From: an uncultured Hoeflea sp.
GTDB taxonomy: Bacteria > Pseudomonadota > Alphaproteobacteria > Rhizobiales > Rhizobiaceae
Direction: 5' to 3'
Assembly: GCF_947501405.1 (NCBI RefSeq)
Contig: NZ_CANMVK010000001.1
Coordinates: forward strand, 496,001-560,000
Length of the DNA: 64,000 bases
Shown: positions 53,486-64,000 of the stretch, piece after piece
Layout of the letters: every line of letters begins with the position of its first letter
How positions within the stretch are numbered: position 1 is the first letter of the stretch
Notes under the pieces: generated by a model
What the model was told of the DNA's origin: nothing
The model's database searches: none
The model's input: the letters and a program-made list of their open reading frames with translations, nothing else
Made by a program: the position numbers and the translations under genes

Positions 53486-55125
53486 GCTTGGCCGGTGCGC
53501 AGTCGATATGGGATGCGTTTGCCGCGACCGCGCGGCGCTTCCCCGACCGGCCGTTGTTCAATGTGCTTGAGGAGACCGCGCGGATTTATGGGATCGCGCC
53601 GGGCGAGCTGAGCTATCGCGAGGTCCACGGTCTGGCGACCGAGCTTGCCGCAGCGCTTCAGCAACGGGGCTATGGCCCGGGTTGCCGGGTGATGCTGCTG
53701 GTGGAAAACCGGCCAGTGTTTTTCACCTGGCTGCTGGCGCTTAATCGCATCGGCGCCTCAGTGGTTCCGGTCAATCCGGATCTCCGGCATGCCGAACTCA
53801 CCTATATGGCGGGGCACTCCGAACCGTCTCTGATTGTGTCGGTGGCGGCGCGCTGCGTTGATCTTGAAGCCGCAGCGCGGGAGGCCGGGATCGACGCTCC
53901 CGTGATCAAGCCGGAAGACGACATTCCGGCGCCCGGAGGGGCAGGTGCGGTTGCACTGCGCCACTCGGCGGAGGGAGATCTGCTTGCCGGTGAGGAAATG
54001 GAAGCGGCGCTGCTCTATACCTCCGGCACCACCGGCAATCCCAAAGGTTGCGTGCTGACCAACACCTATTTTCTCGAAGCTGGACGCTGGTATGCGACGG
54101 CCGGTGGATTGTGCGCCCTGAACGAGGACGGCGAGCGGATGATCACGCCGCTGCCGATCTTCCACATGAACGCCATGGCCTACTCCTTCATGGCAATGGT
54201 GACGGTGGGAGGTTGCCTGACTGCGCTCGATCGGTTCCACCCTTCAAGCTGGTGGTCCAGCGTGCGCGCCAGCCGGGCCACCTGCCTGCACTATCTTGGT
54301 GTCATGCCATCGATGCTGATGGGTGCCGATCCGCGTCCAGACGACCGGGACCACACAGTCCGGTTCGGCTTCGGCGCGGGCGTCGATCCCAAACTGCATG
54401 CGCATTTCGAGACCCGTTTCGGATTTCCGCTGGTCGAGGCCTGGGCGATGACCGAAACCGGCGCGGGCGCGGTAATCTGCGCCAATGACACGCCGCGCCG
54501 GGTGGGCGAGAGCTGTCTCGGCAAGCCCGGGCCGGAGCTGGAGGTCCGGCTCGTCGATGGCAACGGTAATGACAGCGAGACCGGCCCTGGTGAATTGCTG
54601 GTGCGGCGCAAGGGCACTGAACCGCGGCGCGGATTTTTCGCAAGTTACTTCAAGAACCAGGAAGCCACCGCCGAAGCTTGGTCGGAAGGCTGGTTCCACA
54701 CCGGCGACATCGTTCGCCGGGAAGCCGACGGGTCGATGTTCTTTGTCGACCGCAAGAAGAACGTCATCCGCCGCTCAGGCGAAAATATCGCCGCCGTCGA
54801 GGTGGAATCGACGCTCATGCGCCATCCCGCGGTTAATGCCGCCGGCGTGGCCGCGGTGGCCGATCCGGTGCGCGGCGACGAGGTGTTTGCCTGCCTCAAG
54901 GTCGATGGCACACCGGGAGACGAGCTGGCGCGCGAGATTGTCGGCTGGTGTCTCACCCAGCTCGCCTATTACAAGGCGCCGGGCTATATCGCCTTTGTCG
55001 AGGGGCTGCCGCTCACCTCGACCCAGAAGATTCAGCGGCGTGAACTCAAGGCGTTGGCCCACAGTCTTGTCGATGACGGCGCAACCGTCGATACTCGCTC
55101 CATGAAAAAGCGGGCTGCGGCGTGA
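53482..55125 (+). CDS. Acyl-/aryl-CoA ligase (adenylate-forming)
   Basis: ANL-superfamily ligase of 547 residues that activates a carboxylic acid through an acyl-AMP. The P-loop-like motif LLYTSGTTGNPKGCVLTN, the A5-like GFPLVEAWAMTETGAG segment, the A7/A8 hinge WFHTGDIVRREADGSMFFVDRKKNVIRRSGENI and the catalytic Lys region STQKIQRREL are all present. It is nearest to the crotonobetaine/carnitine or medium-chain acyl-CoA ligase type. In this operon it probably activates the carboxyl or side chain of the oxygenase product or substrate. Confidence 0.9.
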   Translation: MSLAGAQSIWDAFAATARRFPDRPLFNVLEETARIYGIAPGELSYREVHGLATELAAALQQRGYGPGCRVMLLVENRPVFFTWLLALNRIGASVVPVNPDLRHAELTYMAGHSEPSLIVSVAARCVDLEAAAREAGIDAPVIKPEDDIPAPGGAGAVALRHSAEGDLLAGEEMEAALLYTSGTTGNPKGCVLTNTYFLEAGRWYATAGGLCALNEDGERMITPLPIFHMNAMAYSFMAMVTVGGCLTALDRFHPSSWWSSVRASRATCLHYLGVMPSMLMGADPRPDDRDHTVRFGFGAGVDPKLHAHFETRFGFPLVEAWAMTETGAGAVICANDTPRRVGESCLGKPGPELEVRLVDGNGNDSETGPGELLVRRKGTEPRRGFFASYFKNQEATAEAWSEGWFHTGDIVRREADGSMFFVDRKKNVIRRSGENIAAVEVESTLMRHPAVNAAGVAAVADPVRGDEVFACLKVDGTPGDELAREIVGWCLTQLAYYKAPGYIAFVEGLPLTSTQKIQRRELKALAHSLVDDGATVDTRSMKKRAAA

Positions 55126-56288
55126 AGCGTAAAGACTATCAGGGCGTGGTGATTGCGGCGCCCGTTTCGGTTCCCTATGTGCGTTACAGCCAGGAAACCG
55201 CGCAATGGTGGATTGCGCGCGCGCTTAAGGACATGCTCAAGTCGGCCAGCCTGACGCCAGTTGATCTCGACGGGCTGTCTGTTTCCAGCTTCACCCTGTT
55301 TCCCGATACCCCGGTCGGGTTGACCCAGCATCTGGGTTTGAGCCCGCGCTGGCTCGACAGCATTCCCATGGGCGGGGCGAGCGGGGTCATCGCGCTCAGG
55401 CGCGCCGCACGCGCGGTGCAGGCGGGGGACGCCGACATCGTCGCATGCGTGGCGGGCGACGCCAACCGGATCGACAGCTTCCGGCAGTTGCTGTCGTCGT
55501 TCTCGCGCTTTGCGATGGATGCGTCCTATCCCTATGGATCGGGCGGGCCCAATGCCAGTTTCGCGCTGATTGCCGACGCCTATATGGCTGAATATGGCGC
55601 TAAGCCGGAGCATTTCGGCCGTATCGCCGTGGCGCAGCGGGCCAATGCGCTGCGTTACAAAAACGCCATTATGAAATCGCCGCTGAGCCTTGAGCAATAT
55701 CTGTCTGCCCGGCCGATCTCGGAGCCGTTCGGGCTTTACGACTGCGTTATGCCGTGCGCCGGGGCCGAGGGTTTTCTGGTGATGCGCGAAGAGGAGGCGG
55801 AAGCGCGCGGGCTCACCTTCGCGCGGCTTGCCGGCACGATCGAGCGTCACAACGCGTTTCCTCAGGATCCGGTGCAAATGCGTGGCGGTTGGGCGATGGA
55901 TATCGATGAATTGTACGGCATGTCCGGGTGCGGCCCTGGCGATATCGATCTGCTGCAGACCTATGATGATTATCCGGTGATCTCGATGATGCAGTTCGAG
56001 GATCTCGGGTTTTGCGACAAGGGCGAGGGTGCGCATTTCGTGAGTTCCCATGATCTGACCATCGATGGTGACTTTCCGCACAACACATCAGGCGGGCAAT
56101 TGTCTGCCGGGCAGGCGGGGGCCGCGGGGGGCTATCTCGGGCTGGTCGAGGCGGTTCGGCAGTTGACCGGTTTGGCTGGCGGCACGCAGGTCAAGGGCGC
56201 GAAAACCGCGATGGTCTCGGGTTTCGGGATGATCAATTACGACCGTGGCCTGTGCTCCTCGGCGGCAATCCTGCGGAGTGGCGGATGA
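55122..56288 (+). CDS. Thiolase-fold protein lacking the catalytic Cys (Ltp2-like)
   Basis: Protein of 388 residues from the GTG at 55122, overlapping the ligase stop. It has the SCP2/lipid-transfer type of thiolase fold (KDYQGVVIAAPVSVPYVRYS), but the active-site motif C-A-S-G reads G85-A-S-G (IPMGGASGV). The C-terminal GHP-type motif reads NTSGGQLSAGQAGAAGG, with Gln in place of His. It cannot be a normal thiolase. Ltp2-type proteins with this loss act as retro-aldolases on beta-hydroxy acyl-CoA thioesters in complex with DUF35 proteins. The next gene encodes a DUF35 domain, supporting that view. Confidence 0.85.
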   Translation: MKRKDYQGVVIAAPVSVPYVRYSQETAQWWIARALKDMLKSASLTPVDLDGLSVSSFTLFPDTPVGLTQHLGLSPRWLDSIPMGGASGVIALRRAARAVQAGDADIVACVAGDANRIDSFRQLLSSFSRFAMDASYPYGSGGPNASFALIADAYMAEYGAKPEHFGRIAVAQRANALRYKNAIMKSPLSLEQYLSARPISEPFGLYDCVMPCAGAEGFLVMREEEAEARGLTFARLAGTIERHNAFPQDPVQMRGGWAMDIDELYGMSGCGPGDIDLLQTYDDYPVISMMQFEDLGFCDKGEGAHFVSSHDLTIDGDFPHNTSGGQLSAGQAGAAGGYLGLVEAVRQLTGLAGGTQVKGAKTAMVSGFGMINYDRGLCSSAAILRSGG

Positions 56289-57532
56289 GCGAGAAACTGC
56301 CGCCGCCCGCCAAGAAAAACCCGCAATTGCGACAACGGGTGCCGACGCTGCCGCCGGTTGCGCGTTCGCGTGCCGCGCTGGGTCTGACAGCGGCAGCGGC
56401 GCGCGGCCGGTTTATGTTGCAGCACTGCGCGGAGTGCGGCGCGGTGCAATATCCGCCGCGCGATGCCTGTGCGTCCTGTCTGTGCGTGGCGCTTGAATGG
56501 CGCGACACCGGGCGCAAGGCCAGAATTATCGCCGAAACCCGGATCCATGTGTCACCCGATCCTTATTTTCGTGAACGCCTGCCGTGGCGAACCGGCCTTG
56601 CGCGGCTTGAGGCCGGGCCGACGGTGTTGTGCCATCTGCATGGCGACGTTGGCCGCGGCGACGCGGTGATGATGGATCTCAAGCTCGACAAGGCGGGGCA
56701 GGGCGTGATGATTGCGCTGCCGGAAACAAGGAGTGCCGATATGGAGGATGATCCGCTGTTGAGAGCCCTGACCGCAGATCCCAAGCACCGGCGAATACTC
56801 GTCACCGACCTCAGATCGGCGATTGCCAAGCCGCTGATTGAAGCTCTTCTGGCCGCGGGCGCGTCCCACGTGTTTGCCGGTGAGCCGGAAGCCTGGCGGC
56901 GCGGTTCCGAGCGTGACGCGATTGCGGCATTGGACCAGGTCTCCGTGATGCCGCTCGATGTCACCGATCAGGCCTCGGTTTCGCGGCTCGCCGGCGAGAT
57001 CGGCGGAAAGACCGACATTGTGATCAACACCGCGCGGCACGTGCGGCCCGGCGGTGTGCTTGGTTCCGACACGGTTTTCGCGCGTGAAGAGTTCGAGATC
57101 AATGCGCTAGGCCTGATGCGGCTCGCGCAGGGGTTCGGGCCGGCCATGTGCTCGCGGACCGCGGACGGGACGAATTCCGCCGCAGCCTTCGTCAATATCC
57201 TGTCGGTTCATGCGCTTTCGGCGGATCCGGGATATGGCGCCTTCTCCGCCAGCCAAGCGGCGGCCTATTCGATCAGCCAGACGCTCCGCTCTGAATTCCG
57301 CAGTTCAGGCTTGCGGGTGATGAACGTGTTTACCGGACCCACGGATGACGAATGGCACCAGCCCTTGCCGCCGCCCAAGGTGACTGCTGGCGCGCTGGCC
57401 AAGGCGATTGTCGCCGGGCTGAAATCCGGTGTTGAAGACGTGTTTTGCGGCGATGTGGCCAAGGATCTGGAAGAACGCTGGCGGCGTGATCCAAAGGTGC
57501 TGGAGCGCGAATTGACGGGAGGTGGAGCATGA
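56285..57532 (+). CDS. DUF35 zinc-ribbon/OB protein fused to a degenerate SDR domain
   Basis: Fusion of 415 residues from the ATG at 56285, overlapping the thiolase-like stop. Residues 1-145 are a DUF35 protein: a zinc ribbon with C48, C51, C62 and C65 (HCAECGAVQYPPRDACASC), then an OB-like beta region. Residues about 165-410 resemble an SDR Rossmann fold (ILVTDLRSAIAKPLIEAL). Its glycine motif is degraded, Ser307 is kept, and the usual Tyr-x3-Lys is Phe320-SAS-Gln324. The SDR half is thus probably structural or acyl-binding. DUF35 partners thiolase-fold aldolases, so it most likely complexes with the preceding protein. Confidence 0.8.
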   Translation: MSEKLPPPAKKNPQLRQRVPTLPPVARSRAALGLTAAAARGRFMLQHCAECGAVQYPPRDACASCLCVALEWRDTGRKARIIAETRIHVSPDPYFRERLPWRTGLARLEAGPTVLCHLHGDVGRGDAVMMDLKLDKAGQGVMIALPETRSADMEDDPLLRALTADPKHRRILVTDLRSAIAKPLIEALLAAGASHVFAGEPEAWRRGSERDAIAALDQVSVMPLDVTDQASVSRLAGEIGGKTDIVINTARHVRPGGVLGSDTVFAREEFEINALGLMRLAQGFGPAMCSRTADGTNSAAAFVNILSVHALSADPGYGAFSASQAAAYSISQTLRSEFRSSGLRVMNVFTGPTDDEWHQPLPPPKVTAGALAKAIVAGLKSGVEDVFCGDVAKDLEERWRRDPKVLERELTGGGA

Positions 57533-58311
57533 CCAGCCCACTGAAGACGCTGAGCGCCGCGCTTGCAGGAGGATCGGTTGAGGTGATCGATCTTACCCAC
57601 ACACTCGATCCCGATTTTCCGGTGATCGTGTTGCCTCCGGAATTTGGCCAGTGCGCCCGGTTCCGGATGGAGGAGGTTTCGGCCTATGACGGCCGCGGGC
57701 CGGCCTGGAAATGGCACAACATCTCGATGAACGAGCACACCGGCACGCATTTCGATGCGCCGATCCACTGGATTTCCGGCAAGGATGTCGCTCATGGGGC
57801 GGTCGACGAGATCGATGTTTCGGTGTTCGTCGGCCCGGTCGTGGTGATCGATTGCTCGGCTGGGGCTGCCGAAAACGACGATTTTGAACTCACACCGGAG
57901 ATTATTACGACGTGGGAGCGCGAGCATGGCCCGATCCCCGCTGACAGTTGGGTGCTGATGCGGACCGACTGGTCGAAGCGCAAAGGCGCTGATTATCTCA
58001 ATATGGCCGATGACGGGCCGCATTCCCCGGGCCCGACGCCCGCGGCGATTGCCTTGCTGCTTGAGCGGGGCATTCGCGGCTTTGGTACCGAGACGGTGGG
58101 AACCGACGCAGGGCAGGGGATGCACTACTCGCCGCCCTATCCGGCGCATTTTCTGCTGCACGGGGCCGGCAAATACGGGCTTCAGTGCCTCACCAATCTC
58201 GATCTTCTGCCTGCGACCGGCGCGGTGCTGGTCGCGCCGCCGCTGAAGATCAAGGGCGGAACCGGCAGTCCCTTACGGGTTCTGGCCATGGTCGACCGGA
58301 GTAACGCGTAA
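57529..58311 (+). CDS. Cyclase-family metal hydrolase (kynurenine-formamidase-like)
   Basis: Protein of 260 residues in the cyclase family (PF04199). The metal-binding signature H70-T-G-T-H74-F-D76-A-P-I-H80 in NEHTGTHFDAPIHW is intact, as is the later HSPGPTPAAI region with the catalytic His. Characterised members hydrolyse N-formylkynurenine or related amides and lactones. In this operon it may open a ring lactone or hydrolyse an intermediate. It starts inside the stop of the DUF35-SDR gene (ATGA). Confidence 0.85.
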   Translation: MTSPLKTLSAALAGGSVEVIDLTHTLDPDFPVIVLPPEFGQCARFRMEEVSAYDGRGPAWKWHNISMNEHTGTHFDAPIHWISGKDVAHGAVDEIDVSVFVGPVVVIDCSAGAAENDDFELTPEIITTWEREHGPIPADSWVLMRTDWSKRKGADYLNMADDGPHSPGPTPAAIALLLERGIRGFGTETVGTDAGQGMHYSPPYPAHFLLHGAGKYGLQCLTNLDLLPATGAVLVAPPLKIKGGTGSPLRVLAMVDRSNA

Positions 58312-58322
58312 GGAGCGACAGG

Positions 58323-59048
58323 ATGAGTGAATTCACAGCCGTCATTACCGGGGCGAGCAAAGGGATCGGGGCCGATCTGGCGTCCCGTCTCATCGAACGC
58401 GGCTACACGGTGATCAACATCTCCCGTAACGCCTCGGACATGACCCATGAGCGCTTCGTCAATGTTGAATGCGATCTGCTGGATCCAGAGGCGGTGGCCG
58501 GGGCGGCTGCATCGATCGCGGCGGAGCACCGGGTTACCCATCTCGTCCACAATGCCGGTCTGATCTGGCCCAACCTGGTGGAGGACGCCAAGCCCGAGGA
58601 CATTACCGGCCTGGCGCAACTGCACCTGGGCTCGGCGCTGACTTTGTTGCAGGCATTTTTGCCCGCCATGAAAGAAGCCCGGTTCGGCCGGGTGATGTTC
58701 AATGGATCGCGCGCGGCCCTGGGCGTGCCCACCCGCACCGCCTATTCTGCCAGCAAGGCGGGCATGATCGGCATGGCGCGAACTTGGGCGCTGGAACTGG
58801 CGCCGCACGGGATCACCGTCAATGTGGTGGCGCCGGGACCGGTGCAGACCGACAATTTCTGGGGCATCATTCCCAAGGGCAGCGATCGGGAATCGGAACT
58901 CGCCAGCAAGATCCCGGTGGGCCGGTTGGGCGCTGTTGAGGATGTCAGCAACGCCTTCCTGTTCTTCTGTGATCCGGCCAGCAGTTTCGTGACAGGTCAG
59001 ACGCTCTATGTATGCGGTGGCACCAGCATCGGGATGCTCAGCCTTTGA
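58323..59048 (+). CDS. Short-chain dehydrogenase/reductase (classical SDR)
   Basis: Classical SDR of 241 residues with the TGASKGIG cofactor motif at the N-terminus, NAG in HNAGLIWPN, and the complete Ser-Tyr-Lys triad (NGSRAALGVPTRTAYSASKAGM). It contrasts with the degenerate SDR domain of the DUF35 fusion two genes upstream. By position it is a candidate cis-dihydrodiol dehydrogenase for the Rieske oxygenase product, or a hydroxyacyl-CoA dehydrogenase. It is the last gene of the operon, followed by a terminator. Confidence 0.9.
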   Translation: MSEFTAVITGASKGIGADLASRLIERGYTVINISRNASDMTHERFVNVECDLLDPEAVAGAAASIAAEHRVTHLVHNAGLIWPNLVEDAKPEDITGLAQLHLGSALTLLQAFLPAMKEARFGRVMFNGSRAALGVPTRTAYSASKAGMIGMARTWALELAPHGITVNVVAPGPVQTDNFWGIIPKGSDRESELASKIPVGRLGAVEDVSNAFLFFCDPASSFVTGQTLYVCGGTSIGMLSL

Positions 59049-59069
59049 GCTCATGCCTGCAAACGTGAA

Positions 59070-59101
59070 AAGCCCGCCAGTGAACGCGCCGGCGGGCCTT
59101 T
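59070..59101 (+). terminator. Rho-independent terminator of the catabolic operon
   Basis: GCCCGCC (59072-59078) pairs with GGCGGGC (59091-59097), followed by CTTTGTGT. It lies 23 bases after the SDR stop and before the convergent porin gene. Confidence 0.8.
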
Positions 59102-59129
59102 GTGTGGGATATGAGAACCCGCAGCCTGT

Positions 59130-59903
59130 CTAAAAAGCGACGTAGAGGCCTACCCGACCGAGCAGCGTCTGGTTCTTGAAGTGGTAACTGATGGTTTCGC
59201 CCGGGAAGGTGACATTGTCGACGGCGTTGACCACCGTGTCACCGAGATCGACATGCAGGGCCTCGAGCTTGACACCGACCCGGTCGGTCAGCCGGTGCTC
59301 GACACCGACGCCGATGGCGTAGCCCCATTCGGTACTCTCCGCACTCCAACCCGGTGATGAATAGCCAAGTCCGGGCAGGTCCAGTGTGAAGCGGTTGGTC
59401 ACCTTGCCTACGGCTGCGCCGGCGCTGGCGAAGATCAAGGTCCGGTCGAAGGTGACGCCACCACGAATTCGTGCCGTGGCGATCGTCCCGAAATCCGTCT
59501 GATAGCTGGTGTTGGTGTCCTGACCGGTGAAGGGCGGATTGGGATTGGGGTCAACTCGCGAGAAGAAGCTTACGGCGTTGAGATCGTTGAAGGTCACATC
59601 GGCTTCCAGACCTGTGACGAAGCGGCCGTATTGCCGGTTGTAGCCCGCCGAGACGCCGCCACTGAAACGCGTGGTCATGTTGTCGATCGAGGCAGGGAAC
59701 AGTCCGTTTTGCACATCGAGCGTGAGCAGCGGCCCCCCGTAGGCACCGCGATTGGCCTCACCGTCGCTACTGATGGATCCGACGAAAGCGCCCAAATAGA
59801 AACCCGACCAGTCGGTGGCCGATGGCGCGGAATGATCCGACATATCGGCTGCGAGCGCCGATGTCGAAGTTAAAAGCCCAAAAATCAATAGGTAGCGGAC
59901 CAT
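59130..59903 (-). CDS. Outer-membrane beta-barrel protein (Omp25/31-like)
   Basis: Porin-family protein of 257 residues with a signal peptide (ending TSALAADM) and an eight-strand Omp25/31-type barrel. It starts DWSGFYLGAFVGS and ends with the phenylalanine-terminated strand RVGLYVAF required for BAM recognition. Alternating hydrophobic strands with Gly/Tyr/Asn turns run throughout (for example GGVSAGYNRQYGRFVTGLEADVTF). It is a small structural outer-membrane protein common in Rhizobiales. It is divergent from the sensor kinase gene. Confidence 0.9.
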   Translation of the reverse strand: MVRYLLIFGLLTSTSALAADMSDHSAPSATDWSGFYLGAFVGSISSDGEANRGAYGGPLLTLDVQNGLFPASIDNMTTRFSGGVSAGYNRQYGRFVTGLEADVTFNDLNAVSFFSRVDPNPNPPFTGQDTNTSYQTDFGTIATARIRGGVTFDRTLIFASAGAAVGKVTNRFTLDLPGLGYSSPGWSAESTEWGYAIGVGVEHRLTDRVGVKLEALHVDLGDTVVNAVDNVTFPGETISYHFKNQTLLGRVGLYVAF

Positions 59904-60207
59904 CTATCCAGCCTCCGAATAAGCCACCCGCAGCAGCGGGAAACACACTGCAGGCCAAAAACAACGTGAGGGGATTAAATCGGATTATAGCTAACAGAAG
60001 CTTAATTTGAGGGCCTGAATTTGCGCACTCCGGCCGAAAACGGGGAACTCCAGGCCCTGCGACTTTTGCGGCTTAACGTAATTGAAAAGCAATTGTGCCC
60101 ATTATGGCGGGTCTAGTTTTGTGCCGAAAGCTTGGAAACAAGCCGTTGGCGACGCAAGGCGCTGCGGCTCTGTCGAGCGGCGCTTAGGAACTCAAAGGGG
60201 CCGGGCA
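59904..60207. other. Divergent promoter region between porin and sensor kinase
   Basis: About 300 bases, AT-richer near 59960-60000 and 60065-60115. No gene or clear operator is seen. The start of the kinase is decided by AAAGGGG before the ATG at 60208. Confidence 0.4.
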
Positions 60208-61650
60208 ATGTTGAGGACACTCGCGAAATCCTATCAGGACCTGATCGACTATTTTGTGCCGGCGTCGCTGAAAGATGATCGCGAGGCCACCAATCAGGCG
60301 CGTATGTTCCTGATCAGTCACACATTCGGTCCGGTGCTTGGCAACACGGTGCCGCTGGCGCTGTTTGTGTTCGATCCGACGCCTGGCTGGGACATTCTGG
60401 TGCTGGCCTTGAGCATCACCTCGTTCTGGGTGTTCCCGTTTTTGTTGCGCGCCGGTGCGCGCTACGACAGCCTGGTTATCACCTCGGTGATCAATCTGAA
60501 TTTCTGCATTCTGTGGAGCTGCTATTTCAACGGCGGCGTCACCTCGCCGACCTTGCCCTGGCTCTTGATCATACCGATCCTGTCGCTGTTTTACATCGGT
60601 GGCGCAAAGCGGTTGCAGGTGCACCTGCTGTCGCTGTTCGGGATCTCGTTCGTGCTGTTTCTGGGGCTTTACAACCTGATCGATCCGCCCATAAATGATA
60701 TTCCCGATGTCGCCCTGCAGGCGCTCGGCGTTGTCTCGACCTCCGCGGCGCTTGCCTATGTTGCGACCATGGCAATCTACTATGCGCGCATATTTGACGC
60801 CGGTGTGGAACTCGAAAACGAAGTGCAGCGGCGGCGCAAGGCGATGCATGAGCTGCGCGAGGCGGTGGCGACCGCAGACCGTGCCGGCCTGATGAAAGCC
60901 GAATTCCTGGCGCGCATGAGCCATGAACTGCGTACCCCGCTCAATGCCGTGATCGGCTACAGCCAGATCCTCAAGGAAGATGCCTATGACATCGGCGGCG
61001 CCCAGATGGACGAGGATGTCGACCGCATTCATGATGCGGGCCAGTATTTGCTGCGGTTGATCAACATGATTCTGGATCTCTCCAAGATCGAAGCGGGCCG
61101 GATGCAGTTCGACATGAAGACCCTTACGGTCACTGATCTGATCCAGTCGGCCATCGACGGCGCCCGCGACACCATCGACAGCAACCACAACACGCTTTCG
61201 CTTGAAATCGATCCGAACGTTGCGGAGATCGAGACCGATGGCGCCCGGATGGTTCAGATTATGGATGCGATTCTGCAAAATGCCGCCATCTACACCGAAG
61301 GCGGAGATATCGAAATCCATTGCTCATTGGCGGCGAACGCTGCGGGTCAGGACGAATACACGATCCTCATCCGCGACACGGGTTGTGGTATCGCGCCGGA
61401 GCGGATGACCAACCTGTTTGAAACGCTGGTGGATTCGCGCGATGCCTCGACAAGCAAATATGGCGGCACCGGCATGAACCTCACGGTGACCAAGAGGCTT
61501 TGCGAGGCCATGGGCGGAGGGATTGATGTGGAAAGCACACTCGGAGAGGGCAGCTGCTTTACCATTCGCATGCCGCGCAAGGACACCACTCAGACCGTCA
61601 AGCCGGCCGCGAGCCCGATCGAACTCGCCGATGAAGCCGTCGCTGCATAA
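60208..61650 (+). CDS. Membrane-bound sensor histidine kinase, six-TM sensor type (sensor A)
   Basis: Protein of 480 residues from the ATG at 60208. Residues about 25-200 form around six hydrophobic helices with almost no periplasmic domain. This input module carries the blocks LISHTFGPVLGNTVP and GGVTSPTLPWLLIIPILSLFYIGG. A short coiled coil (AGVELENEVQRRRKAMHELREAV) leads into HisKA, with the phospho-acceptor His239 in MSHELRTPLNAVIGY. The HATPase follows with ILQNAAIY (N-box), DTGCGIAPE (G1) and GGTGMNL (G2). The short sensor region is homologous to that of the gene at 63412. It lies next to an alpha-oxoamine synthase, suggesting perception of a membrane-permeable signal. Confidence 0.88.
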   Translation: MLRTLAKSYQDLIDYFVPASLKDDREATNQARMFLISHTFGPVLGNTVPLALFVFDPTPGWDILVLALSITSFWVFPFLLRAGARYDSLVITSVINLNFCILWSCYFNGGVTSPTLPWLLIIPILSLFYIGGAKRLQVHLLSLFGISFVLFLGLYNLIDPPINDIPDVALQALGVVSTSAALAYVATMAIYYARIFDAGVELENEVQRRRKAMHELREAVATADRAGLMKAEFLARMSHELRTPLNAVIGYSQILKEDAYDIGGAQMDEDVDRIHDAGQYLLRLINMILDLSKIEAGRMQFDMKTLTVTDLIQSAIDGARDTIDSNHNTLSLEIDPNVAEIETDGARMVQIMDAILQNAAIYTEGGDIEIHCSLAANAAGQDEYTILIRDTGCGIAPERMTNLFETLVDSRDASTSKYGGTGMNLTVTKRLCEAMGGGIDVESTLGEGSCFTIRMPRKDTTQTVKPAASPIELADEAVAA

Positions 61651-61999
61651 TTTCGGCGGAGCCTGATCTTACGGCTGTGTCACTATCAACGCTTGATCGA
61701 ACGATGAGGTTCATCGGCTTCCGCCTTTGGGTTGCCAATGAACACAGCGCCTATACTGCTACAATTGCTGCGCTGCAAACTCGAATATCTTAATTGGCGG
61801 ATGTTATGGCTACCTTTGTATTGTTTAATATACGAAATAGGAAAGCGTAAAATCGTTATTAACCAAAACGGTTCGGCCTTCTTTAGTTATAATTTGTGTA
61901 AAATTCTATAGTTGCTTGTTTGAACTGCCCGGATTTACACCGATTTAGCTTTTTCCCTGGAAACTGATGGCATCCAAAAAAGGATGACAGGGGATAAAA
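61651..61999. other. AT-rich 349-base regulatory region ahead of the oxoamine synthase
   Basis: It differs sharply in composition from its surroundings, being AT-rich between about 61740 and 61999. It holds a perfect TATAAT (61888-61893) without a matching -35. Just before the synthase there is a small hairpin, CATCC (61971-61975)/GGATG (61982-61986) around an A-loop, which stops three bases before the AGGGG Shine-Dalgarno sequence at 61989. No ORF is recognised; an sRNA cannot be excluded. Confidence 0.5.
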
Positions 62000-63340
62000 A
62001 TGAAAACTCAATTCAACTATGACGGCGTTCCCGTGGAAGCACTTGAAGGCAGCATGCGTGACTTCCGGGTCCTGTCGGACACCGATCTGGTCAGCCGCTG
62101 CGACGCGTTTTTCAACTGGCAAGAGACCCGCCGGCATTCCGGCACATGGCCGTTTTCGCGGTCAACCGAAACCGGTCCTGCAGCAAGCTGTGGCGTGCGC
62201 GATGACCGTGGAAACCTGGTCAATGGCGTGAATTTCGCCTCGCAGGACTATCTGAGCCTTTCTTCGCACCCGGCCGTCGCAGACGCCGCCCGTGAGGCGA
62301 TTGACGTATTCGGTGTGCATTCGGCCGGATCGCCGGCCTTGGTGGGCAATACCTCGACGTCGGTCGAGCTGGAGCGCCGCATCGCCGAATTTCTCAACAT
62401 GAAGGAAGCGATCCTTTATCCCACCGGTTGGGCCGCGGGCTTCGGCGTTCTCAAGGGGCTGGTCCGCTCGCATGACTACATCGTCATGGACGCGCTGGCC
62501 CATGCCTGCCTCCAGACCGGTGCGCAAGCCGCGACCCGCAATGTCTCGCTGTTCCGCCATCTCGACAATGAGCACTGCCGCGACCGTCTTGTCGCCATTC
62601 GCAAGCGCGATCCCAAGGCCGGGATCATGATCGTCACCGAAGGTCTGTTCTCGATGGACAGCGATACGCCCGATATCGAAGGCCTGCAGGAACTGGCCCG
62701 CGAGTTCGGCGCCACGCTAATGGTCGACGTGGCACATGACCTGGGCTGCCTGGGCGAGGATGGTACCGGCCATATCGGCATCCAGGACATGCTGGGCAAG
62801 GTTGATCTGGTGATGGGCAGTTTCTCCAAGACCTTCGGTTCCAATGGCGGCTTCGTTGCCACCAACAGCCGTGCGGTTAAGGAATATCTGCGGTTTTACA
62901 GCCCGTCCTGCACGTTTTCCAACTCATTGTCGCCGGTTCAGGTGGCCACCATCACCAAAGCGCTGGACATCGTCGAGTCCGATGAGGGCAAGCAACTGCG
63001 CCGGGCCTTGATGAACAACGTGGTCTCGCTTCGCGCCCAGATCCGTGCCCGTGGCATGGATGTCTATGGCGATCCGTCGGCCATTGTCGCGGTGAAAACC
63101 GGTGATGAGGCGCTGGCGCGGATGACCTCGCGGTCACTGCCGGAGCTGGGCTTGATCTCCAACCTGGTCGAGTATCCCGCCGTGGGCAAGGGCCAGGCGC
63201 GGTTCCGCCTGCAGGTGATGGCCGGGCACACCGCCCAGGAAATCACCGCTGCGGCTGACCGCATGGAAGCGGCCATGAAAGCAGGCCAGCAGGCGCTTGA
63301 AACGGTAACCGAACCGTTCGAGCAGCGTCTTGCGGGATAA
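62000..63340 (+). CDS. Alpha-oxoamine synthase, CqsA/LqsA-like (candidate signal synthase)
   Basis: PLP enzyme of 446 residues in the alpha-oxoamine synthase family (relatives: CqsA/LqsA, serine palmitoyltransferase, KBL, ALAS). The family core begins at about residue 65 (VNGVNFASQDYLSLSSHP). The PLP-stacking His is in DALAHACLQTG, the Asp/His pair in MVDVAHDLGCLGEDGTGHI, and the Schiff-base Lys in GSFSKTFGSNGG. An N-terminal extension of about 60 residues is unusual for CqsA. Such enzymes condense an acyl-CoA with an amino acid. Being sandwiched between two sensor kinases argues for an alpha-hydroxyketone-type autoinducer synthase; a sphingoid or other lipid precursor role is the alternative. 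Confidence 0.82.
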   Translation: MKTQFNYDGVPVEALEGSMRDFRVLSDTDLVSRCDAFFNWQETRRHSGTWPFSRSTETGPAASCGVRDDRGNLVNGVNFASQDYLSLSSHPAVADAAREAIDVFGVHSAGSPALVGNTSTSVELERRIAEFLNMKEAILYPTGWAAGFGVLKGLVRSHDYIVMDALAHACLQTGAQAATRNVSLFRHLDNEHCRDRLVAIRKRDPKAGIMIVTEGLFSMDSDTPDIEGLQELAREFGATLMVDVAHDLGCLGEDGTGHIGIQDMLGKVDLVMGSFSKTFGSNGGFVATNSRAVKEYLRFYSPSCTFSNSLSPVQVATITKALDIVESDEGKQLRRALMNNVVSLRAQIRARGMDVYGDPSAIVAVKTGDEALARMTSRSLPELGLISNLVEYPAVGKGQARFRLQVMAGHTAQEITAAADRMEAAMKAGQQALETVTEPFEQRLAG

Positions 63341-63351
63341 TTGACGACATC

Positions 63352-63378
63352 GACGCCGGCGGGCCAACCGCCGGCGTC
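63352..63378 (+). terminator. Strong hairpin between the synthase and sensor B
   Basis: GACGCCGGCGG (63352-63362), loop GCCAA, CCGCCGGCGTC (63368-63378): a perfect 11-bp stem 10 bases after the synthase stop. The following sequence has only a short AT stretch (ATTCATAA), so termination may be partial, letting sensor B be read at a lower level. Confidence 0.6.
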
Positions 63379-63411
63379 ATTCATAACGCGAACCCGGCAC
63401 GGGGACTGCAC

Positions 63412-64000
63412 ATGCTAATGGACAACAAGATCATCAACTGGTTCATTCCGACCCGTTTTATCCACGGCAGGACCAACATTGAACTGGCGCGTGTGTTTGT
63501 CTTTACGCATCTTTTCGGTCCGGTGATCGCCCAGCCGATGGTGATCTATCTGTGGATGATCTCGCCCGAGGTCACCGCCCCGCTTGAAGTGATGATGATC
63601 GGCATCAACAGCTTCCTGCTGCTGCCCTTCGTGATGCGCTGGACCGGCAACATGACCCTTGCGGCGCTGTTGTCCTATCAGGGATTGGCGTCGATATCGC
63701 TGTTTGGCACGCTGTGTTATGGCGGTTTCAGCTCGCCGTTTCTGCCTTGGCTGATCGTCAGCCTGCTGTTGGGATTTTTCTATCTTTCGAAGAAGGCGCT
63801 GCTGGTGCTGGGGCTGTTTGCGGCCGATTTGGCGGTGTTCCTGATCGTCCTGGCCTGGAAAGGTCTTCCCAACACGGTTCCAATCGCAGATCTCAGGATC
63901 CTGGGCTGGCTGTCGATCGTCGCGGCCATGGTCTACATGTCGTGGATGGCGCTGTACTACGCGCGGATGATTGCGCTCAGAAGTGAGCTTCAAACCGAAG
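63412..64000 (+). CDS. Membrane sensor homologous to sensor A (sensor B, truncated by window end)
   Basis: The first 196 residues of a membrane protein, starting at the ATG at 63412 with GGGGA upstream. It has about six hydrophobic helices and the same module as the upstream kinase: ARVFVFTHLFGPVIAQP aligns with ARMFLISHTFGPVLGNT, GGFSSPFLPWLIVSLLLGFFYL with GGVTSPTLPWLLIIPILSLFYI, and YYARMIALRSELQTE with YYARIFDAGVELENE. The rest presumably encodes a histidine kinase or another output domain. It lies 71 bases after the synthase. Confidence 0.8.
   Translation, partial: MLMDNKIINWFIPTRFIHGRTNIELARVFVFTHLFGPVIAQPMVIYLWMISPEVTAPLEVMMIGINSFLLLPFVMRWTGNMTLAALLSYQGLASISLFGTLCYGGFSSPFLPWLIVSLLLGFFYLSKKALLVLGLFAADLAVFLIVLAWKGLPNTVPIADLRILGWLSIVAAMVYMSWMALYYARMIALRSELQTE

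Follow-up and report, generated by a model that had tools for sequence, protein, structure and literature searches.

A candidate signalling cassette of alphaproteobacteria that joins an alpha-oxoamine synthase to two six-helix sensor kinases and a c-di-GMP regulator

We analysed a stretch of 64,000 nucleotides from an uncultured Hoeflea sp. (NCBI RefSeq assembly GCF_947501405.1, contig NZ_CANMVK010000001.1; G000:C1:496001-560000 of a 4.45 Mb genome), hereafter the window. Near its right end, a gene for a pyridoxal phosphate (PLP)-dependent alpha-oxoamine synthase (AOS) lies between two genes for membrane sensor kinases (HKA and HKB). The original prediction, made from the window alone, had placed the synthase between a complete membrane histidine kinase and a second sensor protein, and HKA, AOS and HKB do start at the positions it gave. 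It had also seen no response regulator. This holds within the window, but reading the same locus on past the window end (stretch L005) revealed a full kinase as the output domain of HKB and, directly after HKB, a response regulator with receiver (REC), GGDEF and EAL domains (Table 1). The gene order is HKA-AOS-HKB-REC-GGDEF-EAL. The HisKA, HATPase, REC, GGDEF and EAL domains of these proteins all pass their Pfam cut-offs, and the H-boxes and the GGDEF and EAL motifs are intact. No receiver domain was found in HKA.

Table 1. Features at the cassette locus, in window numbering
Feature	Position	Strand	Remarks
Small outer-membrane beta-barrel (OMP_b-brl)	59130..59903	-	Pfam PF13505; divergent from HKA; cassette-associated family
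HKA, six-helix membrane sensor and histidine kinase, 480 aa	60208..61650	+	HisKA and HATPase_c; H-box SHELRTPLN at 238
AOS, PLP-dependent alpha-oxoamine synthase in a clade of its own, 446 aa	62000..63340	+	Lys277 in GSFSKTFG; His168 in DALAHAC
HKB, second sensor kinase, of the HKA family, 481 aa	63412..64000, on to 64857	+	complete in the extended sequence; H-box at 229
REC-GGDEF-EAL response regulator, 623 aa	64935-66806, outside the window		starts 78 bp after the HKB stop; GGDEF at 279, EALL at 407

It is evident that the sensor modules of HKA and HKB are homologous, as had been proposed from the window (hhalign profile-profile probability 100%, E 2.4e-46), and the two proteins share 33.5% identity over 463 aligned positions. 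They give the only two sensor matches in the window genome, with none further at E 1e-12. The AlphaFold2 model of the HKA sensor (pLDDT 87.3, pTM 0.83) shows six long helices and little outside the membrane, in agreement with the six-helix sensor predicted earlier, and hydropathy peaks over the threshold number six in HKB and five in HKA. Among 19 aligned A and B sensors, 20 columns are invariant, including His38, Gly41-Pro42, Ser113-Pro114 and Trp118 (HKA numbering). In a quick sensor tree of 70 rows, from which matches below 60 bits or 150 residues had been dropped, the A sensors (18 rows) and the B sensors (16 rows) form separate clades (starred, 95 and 98), and one sensor of L016 falls outside both. 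A third group holds the sensors of types II and III described below, and a fourth holds the sensors linked to CqsA-type synthases together with two hybrid kinases without AOS in their stretch.

A six-helix membrane sensor joined to a histidine kinase, encoded next to an oxoamine synthase, is a trait that HKA and HKB share with the CqsS and LqsS receptors. Homology to CqsS-type sensors was nevertheless not detected (hhalign probability 0.1-0.2%) when the comparison set consisted of the kinases beside nine NF005526 synthases, nine of the ten genomes with that family having been followed. The sensor has no Pfam or NCBIfam family above cut-off, only sub-threshold DUF3810, PspB and ActS/PrrB matches, and no PDB sequence-profile match at E 10. 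The best solved fold for the sensor model is the six-transmembrane (6TM) anchor of the class III adenylyl cyclase Rv1625c (TM 0.62, prob 1.00, E 0.023), a match between a model and a structure that is suggestive and is not significant by its E-value, no PDB fold match being found at 0.001; none of the other 49 listed fold matches exceeds a query TM of 0.27. The effector differs, being a kinase or GGDEF-EAL here and not a cyclase. Excerpts of one study report that the Vibrio CqsS receptor replaced the 6TM anchor of Rv1625c and made the cyclase ligand-regulated (PMC4821796).

By curated cut-offs the synthase belongs to none of the families it was compared with. Its scores lie well under the respective cut-offs: 276.5 bits against BioF (cut-off 426.45), with 250.2 bits against PRK06939; 243.3, 238.4 and 183.6 bits against the serine palmitoyltransferase (SPT) models (cut-offs 500, 640 and 670); 232.3 bits against KBL (cut-off 493); 194.1 bits against 5-aminolevulinate synthase (ALAS; cut-off 338.55); and 176.5 bits against the CqsA/LqsA family NF005526 (cut-off 428). 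The ALAS of the window genome is another gene (L007, 675.3 bits), and no NF005526 match was found in this genome at E 1e-90. In a tree of 51 rows, whose 26 AOS-clade rows were chosen by hand, the AOS clade is split off by a 100/100 branch, as are SPT, CqsA and ALAS, and AOS lies outside the 15 CqsA-type rows, which form a 100/100 clade of their own. An earlier AOS tree left out 18 of 102 rows, namely 10 fetched in duplicate, 2 partial and 6 further AOS with low scores. On both cut-offs and clades we reject SPT, KBL, BioF, ALAS and CqsA as the identity of AOS; in particular, the synthase does not fall inside SPT, a placement that would have told against the original prediction.

In AOS, as in the KBL, SPT, BioF and ALAS rows (rows shown, up to four per group), the PLP lysine, stacking histidine and Asp-His pair are conserved, and so are a C-terminal Arg and a C-terminal His; the eight CqsA-type rows are without this His. 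We take the lysine, the histidine, the Asp-His pair and the C-terminal Arg to be catalytic. Two marks set the clade apart: SQDYL against NDYL or NNYL in most others, and HSAGS-A-L-GNT where most others outside CqsA have a glycine-rich loop. The kept residues and the clade marks argue for a putative reaction of an amino acid and an acyl donor to an aminoketone, with a changed choice of substrate. The extra N-terminal segment noted originally, put at about 60 residues, was overstated: AOS starts 24 (KBL 1fc4), 32 (SPT 8guh) and 34 (BioF 1bs0) positions ahead of solved chains, 14 ahead of the CqsA construct 3hqt and about 8-9 ahead of Sphingomonas SPT chains; some of the solved chains compared may carry tags. 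Residues 14-60 are rich in invariant positions among 10 clade members. The predicted AOS model is of low confidence (72.4) and was used for fold confirmation only.

A scan of a collection of 84,980 species gave 10 AOS loci, and BLAST among them recovered the complete gene order again in L009-L014. This arrangement in a row, which we call type I, is found in the window genome, L009-L014 and L080, and also in L081 with an in-frame stop in HKA. Its parts are rearranged within one fetched stretch in L015, L082 and L124, and L175 and L176 have both kinases, a single receiver and the regulator in one place and AOS in another. Where HKA is followed by a receiver of its own (L082, L083, L175 and L176), this is a stand-alone REC; HKB is followed by the GGDEF-EAL regulator. 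AOS also lies on a large plasmid of Pseudorhodobacter turbinis; HKB comes next, then a 162-aa receiver open reading frame (ORF) resembling that of the regulator, and an HKA-type kinase is ~10 kb off. Records of Fulvimarina manganoxydans and Aureimonas sp. Leaf324 likewise hold both AOS and sensors.

There are two other architectures. In type II (most of L085-L106), a hybrid sensor-kinase-REC gene occurs with one or two small receivers, an AOS gene on the opposite strand and a GGDEF-EAL gene; the hybrid kinase of L087, the only one scanned, also has PAS. At L087:8496-8972 and in like type II loci, a second, diverged small receiver adjoins the synthase on the same strand (family f5, 16 loci) and is possibly a phosphate sink or adaptor. 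In type III (L107-L109; three genomes of one genus), AOS is followed by a sensor-GGDEF-EAL fusion, with GGDEF and EAL assigned by Pfam in L107 and the sensor by profile. Outside the class, the AOS of L127 adjoins a GGDEF-GGDEF-EAL protein with a weak sensor match of 41 bits. The sensorless AOS-clade gene of L179 (a plasmid of Salipiger sp. CCB-MM3) lies directly downstream of a gene for a LuxR-type (GerE) regulator of 376 aa, perhaps another way of reading the AOS product.

In profile searches, the AOS clade was found in 42 of 297 family genomes and 6 of 385 class genomes at E 1e-110, and in 8 of 398 phylum genomes at E 1e-95. It is patchy even among 61 near relatives, where only the genome itself and one other have it at E 1e-80, and this patchy occurrence suggests gain by transfer. 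Synthase and sensor do occur together elsewhere: in the 385 class genomes, the sensor is present in 5 of the 6 with AOS and in 4 of the 379 others (P = 1.1e-8, Fisher's exact test, uncorrected for relatedness by descent). That an ordinary oxoamine synthase came to lie beside unrelated two-component genes by chance is scarcely credible. The rarity of AOS in the genus, 0 of 17 other genomes at E 1e-80, might be taken to favor it, but the order is kept in distant genera, and the sensor search and the synthase search find each other reciprocally.

A sensor-family match lies in the fetched stretch of 40 of the 61 AOS-clade rows. Among these 61 rows, the window and L005 are one locus counted twice, L014 is a near copy of L013, and L018 and L084 are among the partial rows. 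Left out were L017, L111 and L112, which come from the L018 genome, and L077 and L078, which duplicate L010 and L011; with its AOS split by a stop, L129 fell under the threshold.

The same sensor family is also found beside true CqsA/LqsA-type synthases. A sensor-only search of the 385 class genomes gave 9 positives, five of them with the AOS clade. In three genomes (G061, G247 and G419; loci L132-L134, of which L133 is in G061), the sensor kinase adjoins another, more distant oxoamine synthase. All three of these synthases pass the NF005526 cut-off of 428 in the genome search (489, 460.6 and 452.3 bits), and the two that were scanned against NCBIfam score 489.3 and 460.7 bits. Among the 4 sensor genomes without the AOS clade, G061 and G341 carry CqsA/LqsA-type synthases over the cut-off, the two of G341 being on a contig other than that of its sensors. 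Since the sensor lies beside both AOS-clade and NF005526 synthases, the family is tied to two separate synthase lineages. This pairing is the strongest evidence that the sensor would read the product of such enzymes. It also strengthens the analogy first drawn with CqsA/CqsS and LqsA/LqsS.

Two of these genomes have further loci of this kind. In G061 (L209), a second CqsA-type synthase lies beside a kinase with a CqsS-type sensor, and on its other flank is another membrane sensor kinase. In G341 (L208:6939-10514), a 1191-aa ORF consists of an MMPL-type resistance-nodulation-division (RND) transporter fused to a CqsA/LqsA-type synthase domain (residues ~821-1168). It lies just downstream of a second CqsA-type synthase and near an AcrB-type pump, and is possibly a synthase-exporter fusion for a ketone signal.

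Besides the synthase, the commonest gene families across the loci are the kinases, the receivers, GGDEF-EAL and the outer-membrane barrel. A barrel-family profile has a single match in the 64 kb window, the gene divergent from HKA. Matches lie at most 2.5 kb from AOS or a sensor in 29 of the 61 AOS-clade rows (that of L084 being a weak 30-bit fragment) and within 2.7 kb in four more rows; 410 kb of loci without a passing AOS-clade match gave one, 28 bp from a sensor frame. In L096, L101 and L102, the barrel adjoins AOS in genomes where no sensor was found. OmpW genes, checked by Pfam, adjoin AOS in L011, L013 and L016, and members of the same sequence family as the L011 and L013 genes lie next to the synthase in L014 and L082.

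The next families are generic, namely an ABC-ATPase (11 loci) and a short-chain dehydrogenase/reductase (SDR; 8 loci), of each of which one member was scanned and neither of which has a fixed place. These neighbours bear on a reading in which AOS would make an antibiotic-like or interference metabolite, intracellular or secreted, whose production the sensors would time, any quorum reading being incidental. Such self-sensing would fit the sensorless L115, which sits with dehydrogenase genes, and two distant AOS-clade members near very large ORFs of unscanned content (in L128, a 608-aa AOS ORF precedes a 1937-aa ORF that holds a second AOS domain; in L129, the split AOS is near a 2564-aa ORF). 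We hold it to be very improbable, as the commonest companions are signalling genes and the barrel, and the SDR matches to the window SDR are only 28-34% identical.

Upstream of the cassette, at 55122-59048, the window has an operon-like run whose genes encode a protein of the thiolase C-terminal type, a fusion of a ChsH2-type zinc ribbon/OB protein with an SDR, a PF04199 cyclase and the SDR just mentioned. We rejected this run as part of the system because its relatives in other cassette neighbourhoods are few and distant: the cyclase has none in the stretches fetched, those of the thiolase are confined to L119/L120 at about 31% identity, the ChsH2-SDR has a partial relative only in L120, and the SDR has only its generic matches in 8 loci. 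An RND pump ~3.5 kb downstream of the regulator in the window genome is ~31% alike to the pumps of the sister genomes L125 and L126, where HlyD-AcrB genes lie immediately upstream of the synthase. An RND pump as a conserved exporter was rejected too, since outside this sister pair the pumps of four loci are 28-40% alike; orthology is not claimed. No Rfam RNA reached the gathering score in 57000-64000. No conserved upstream motif was found, the HKA-AOS and barrel-HKA intergenic stretches (5 and 6 loci) aligning poorly.

These results support the interpretation offered originally, of a signal read by two related sensors, and we consider it likely that the cassette is a self-contained cell-to-cell signalling circuit with a lipophilic aminoketone-type signal, two receptors and a c-di-GMP output. 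Judging from its enzyme class, AOS would condense an amino acid and a fatty acyl thioester into a lipophilic alpha-aminoketone or a derived hydroxyketone. The compound would leave the cell, and the barrel of the cassette, or OmpW in some relatives, may aid its crossing or its loading into vesicles. A barrel or vesicle route is a reasonable guess by analogy, because the Legionella signal LAI-1 is described, in the excerpted text, as hydrophobic and carried in outer-membrane vesicles (PMC10692735). The six-helix sensors of HKA and HKB, given their linkage and fold, would bind the compound within the membrane. Both kinases would then set the phosphorylation of the REC-GGDEF-EAL protein, the flow of phosphate presumably following the chain of domains seen in the genes, so that the signal level would control c-di-GMP. 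In the single genus with type III, the fusion would shorten this path to a single protein.

Several observations weigh against such a circuit. Its product, its export and the binding of its ligand are all proposed from sequence, and the fold match to Rv1625c, as given above, falls short of significance by its E-value. No sensor lies in the fetched stretch of 21 of the 61 AOS-clade rows. Several of these are contig ends; in 9 of the 21, AOS scores 480-573 bits, the lowest full AOS with a sensor having 557 bits. In 23 AOS genomes, picked mostly for a missing sensor or a cut contig, a search at E 1e-6 gave a sensor in 10 and none anywhere in 13, of which 9 have an AOS below 575 bits. Sensorless members of the clade are thus real, and some clade members need not be signal synthases. 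In G257 and G350 (2 of the 5 class genomes with both genes), G951 and G831, AOS has no sensor beside it, the sensors being at other sites in the genome, and G256 and G427 have the sensor with neither an NF005526 synthase over the cut-off nor an AOS-clade match. Because the loci under study themselves supplied the barrel profile, its counts apply to them and not to frequency elsewhere in the genomes, and Omp25-like barrels are generally common in rhizobia. Finally, the approximately unbiased (AU) test rejects neither CqsA (AU p 0.343) nor SPT (AU p 0.345) as the sister of the AOS clade.

The cassette could also be explained by envelope-lipid control, in which AOS would make a long-chain base or another aminolipid of the outer membrane, and the kinases would monitor either the state of the membrane or the pool of lipid and adjust c-di-GMP, and with it surface attachment, without exchange between cells. 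The solved relatives of AOS include serine palmitoyltransferases and a cysteate-C-fatty acyltransferase, the SPT models score near the others, SPT as the sister of the AOS clade is not rejected, an outer-membrane protein accompanies many cassettes, and the sensorless clade members would be accommodated. We nevertheless think this unlikely. AOS is not an SPT by cut-off or by clade, and synthases of the CqsA/LqsA type occur with this sensor family too. Furthermore, the SPT of these bacteria is described in excerpts of one paper as normally accompanied by genes for a dedicated acyl carrier protein and an acyl-CoA/acyl-ACP synthetase (PMC9386255), and none of these was recognised among the AOS neighbours scanned or read, some small ORFs lying outside the scan.

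By analogy, the cassette is best called a system that works like CqsA/CqsS and LqsA/LqsS and is a member of neither. CqsA/CqsS of Vibrio likewise has a PLP oxoamine synthase adjoining a membrane histidine kinase with a six-helix sensor, and its ligands are lipophilic (PMC3376566, PMC4821796, in the parts excerpted). LqsA/LqsS/LqsT/LqsR of Legionella and JqsA/JqsS/JqsR of Janthinobacterium are described in similar excerpts as a synthase, a membrane sensor kinase (two in Legionella) and a response regulator (PMC10692735, PMC3566124). The two homologous kinases proposed here to read one signal recall LqsS and LqsT, each described as a cognate sensor within a single system (PMC10692735, excerpt). 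LqsR is without a known output domain according to the excerpted PMC3376566, whereas the regulator of the cassette has GGDEF and EAL. The differences are otherwise those of family: the synthase and sensor families of the cassette are unlike those of Lqs and Jqs; AOS shares with SPT the fold and the catalytic residues and stands in a separate clade below the cut-offs; and against Vibrio both the NF005526 score and the sensor profile (probability 0.2%) fall short. The wiring differs as well. In Vibrio a hybrid kinase feeds a separate relay, whereas here two kinases without receiver domains have a neighbouring REC-GGDEF-EAL output.

We recognised no earlier description of this synthase-sensor pair among the matches listed from the open-access literature, mostly titles and starts of abstracts. 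R. vannielii, which we take to be an alphaproteobacterium, is relevant here. Its strain ATCC 17100 is named in a figure legend on CqsA-like synthases (excerpt of PMC3566124), so CqsA-type synthases in the class are not wholly unseen before. Elsewhere, the excerpted text of a review describes signals of this class as seemingly confined to one group of aquatic gammaproteobacteria, and notes lqsA-lqsS clusters in some environmental bacteria too (PMC3376566). The words "quorum" and "oxoamine" are absent from the main text of a paper that surveys c-di-GMP genes across five alphaproteobacterial orders (PMC9756655), and rhizobial quorum sensing is usually described via acyl-homoserine lactones (abstracts of PMC5977203 and PMC7022240).

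On a wider proposal our opinion is evenly divided: that the cassette represents a third, unrecognised class of oxoamine-synthase signalling, centred on the alphaproteobacteria, with its own synthase clade, its own six-helix receptors unlike CqsS in sequence, and direct c-di-GMP wiring, with a relay of twin kinases at one extreme and a one-protein receptor at the other. Because this receptor family has at least twice come to be paired with different synthase lineages, it would be general for this chemical class. If the signalling circuit proposed here is true, there would be a new signal to seek in these bacteria, belonging to a conserved circuit of the alphaproteobacteria that has a receptor of its own and ends in c-di-GMP. 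The fusion of sensor and GGDEF-EAL would offer a ligand receptor in one protein, with directly measurable activity, and a second case for 6TM modules such as that of Rv1625c being receptors.

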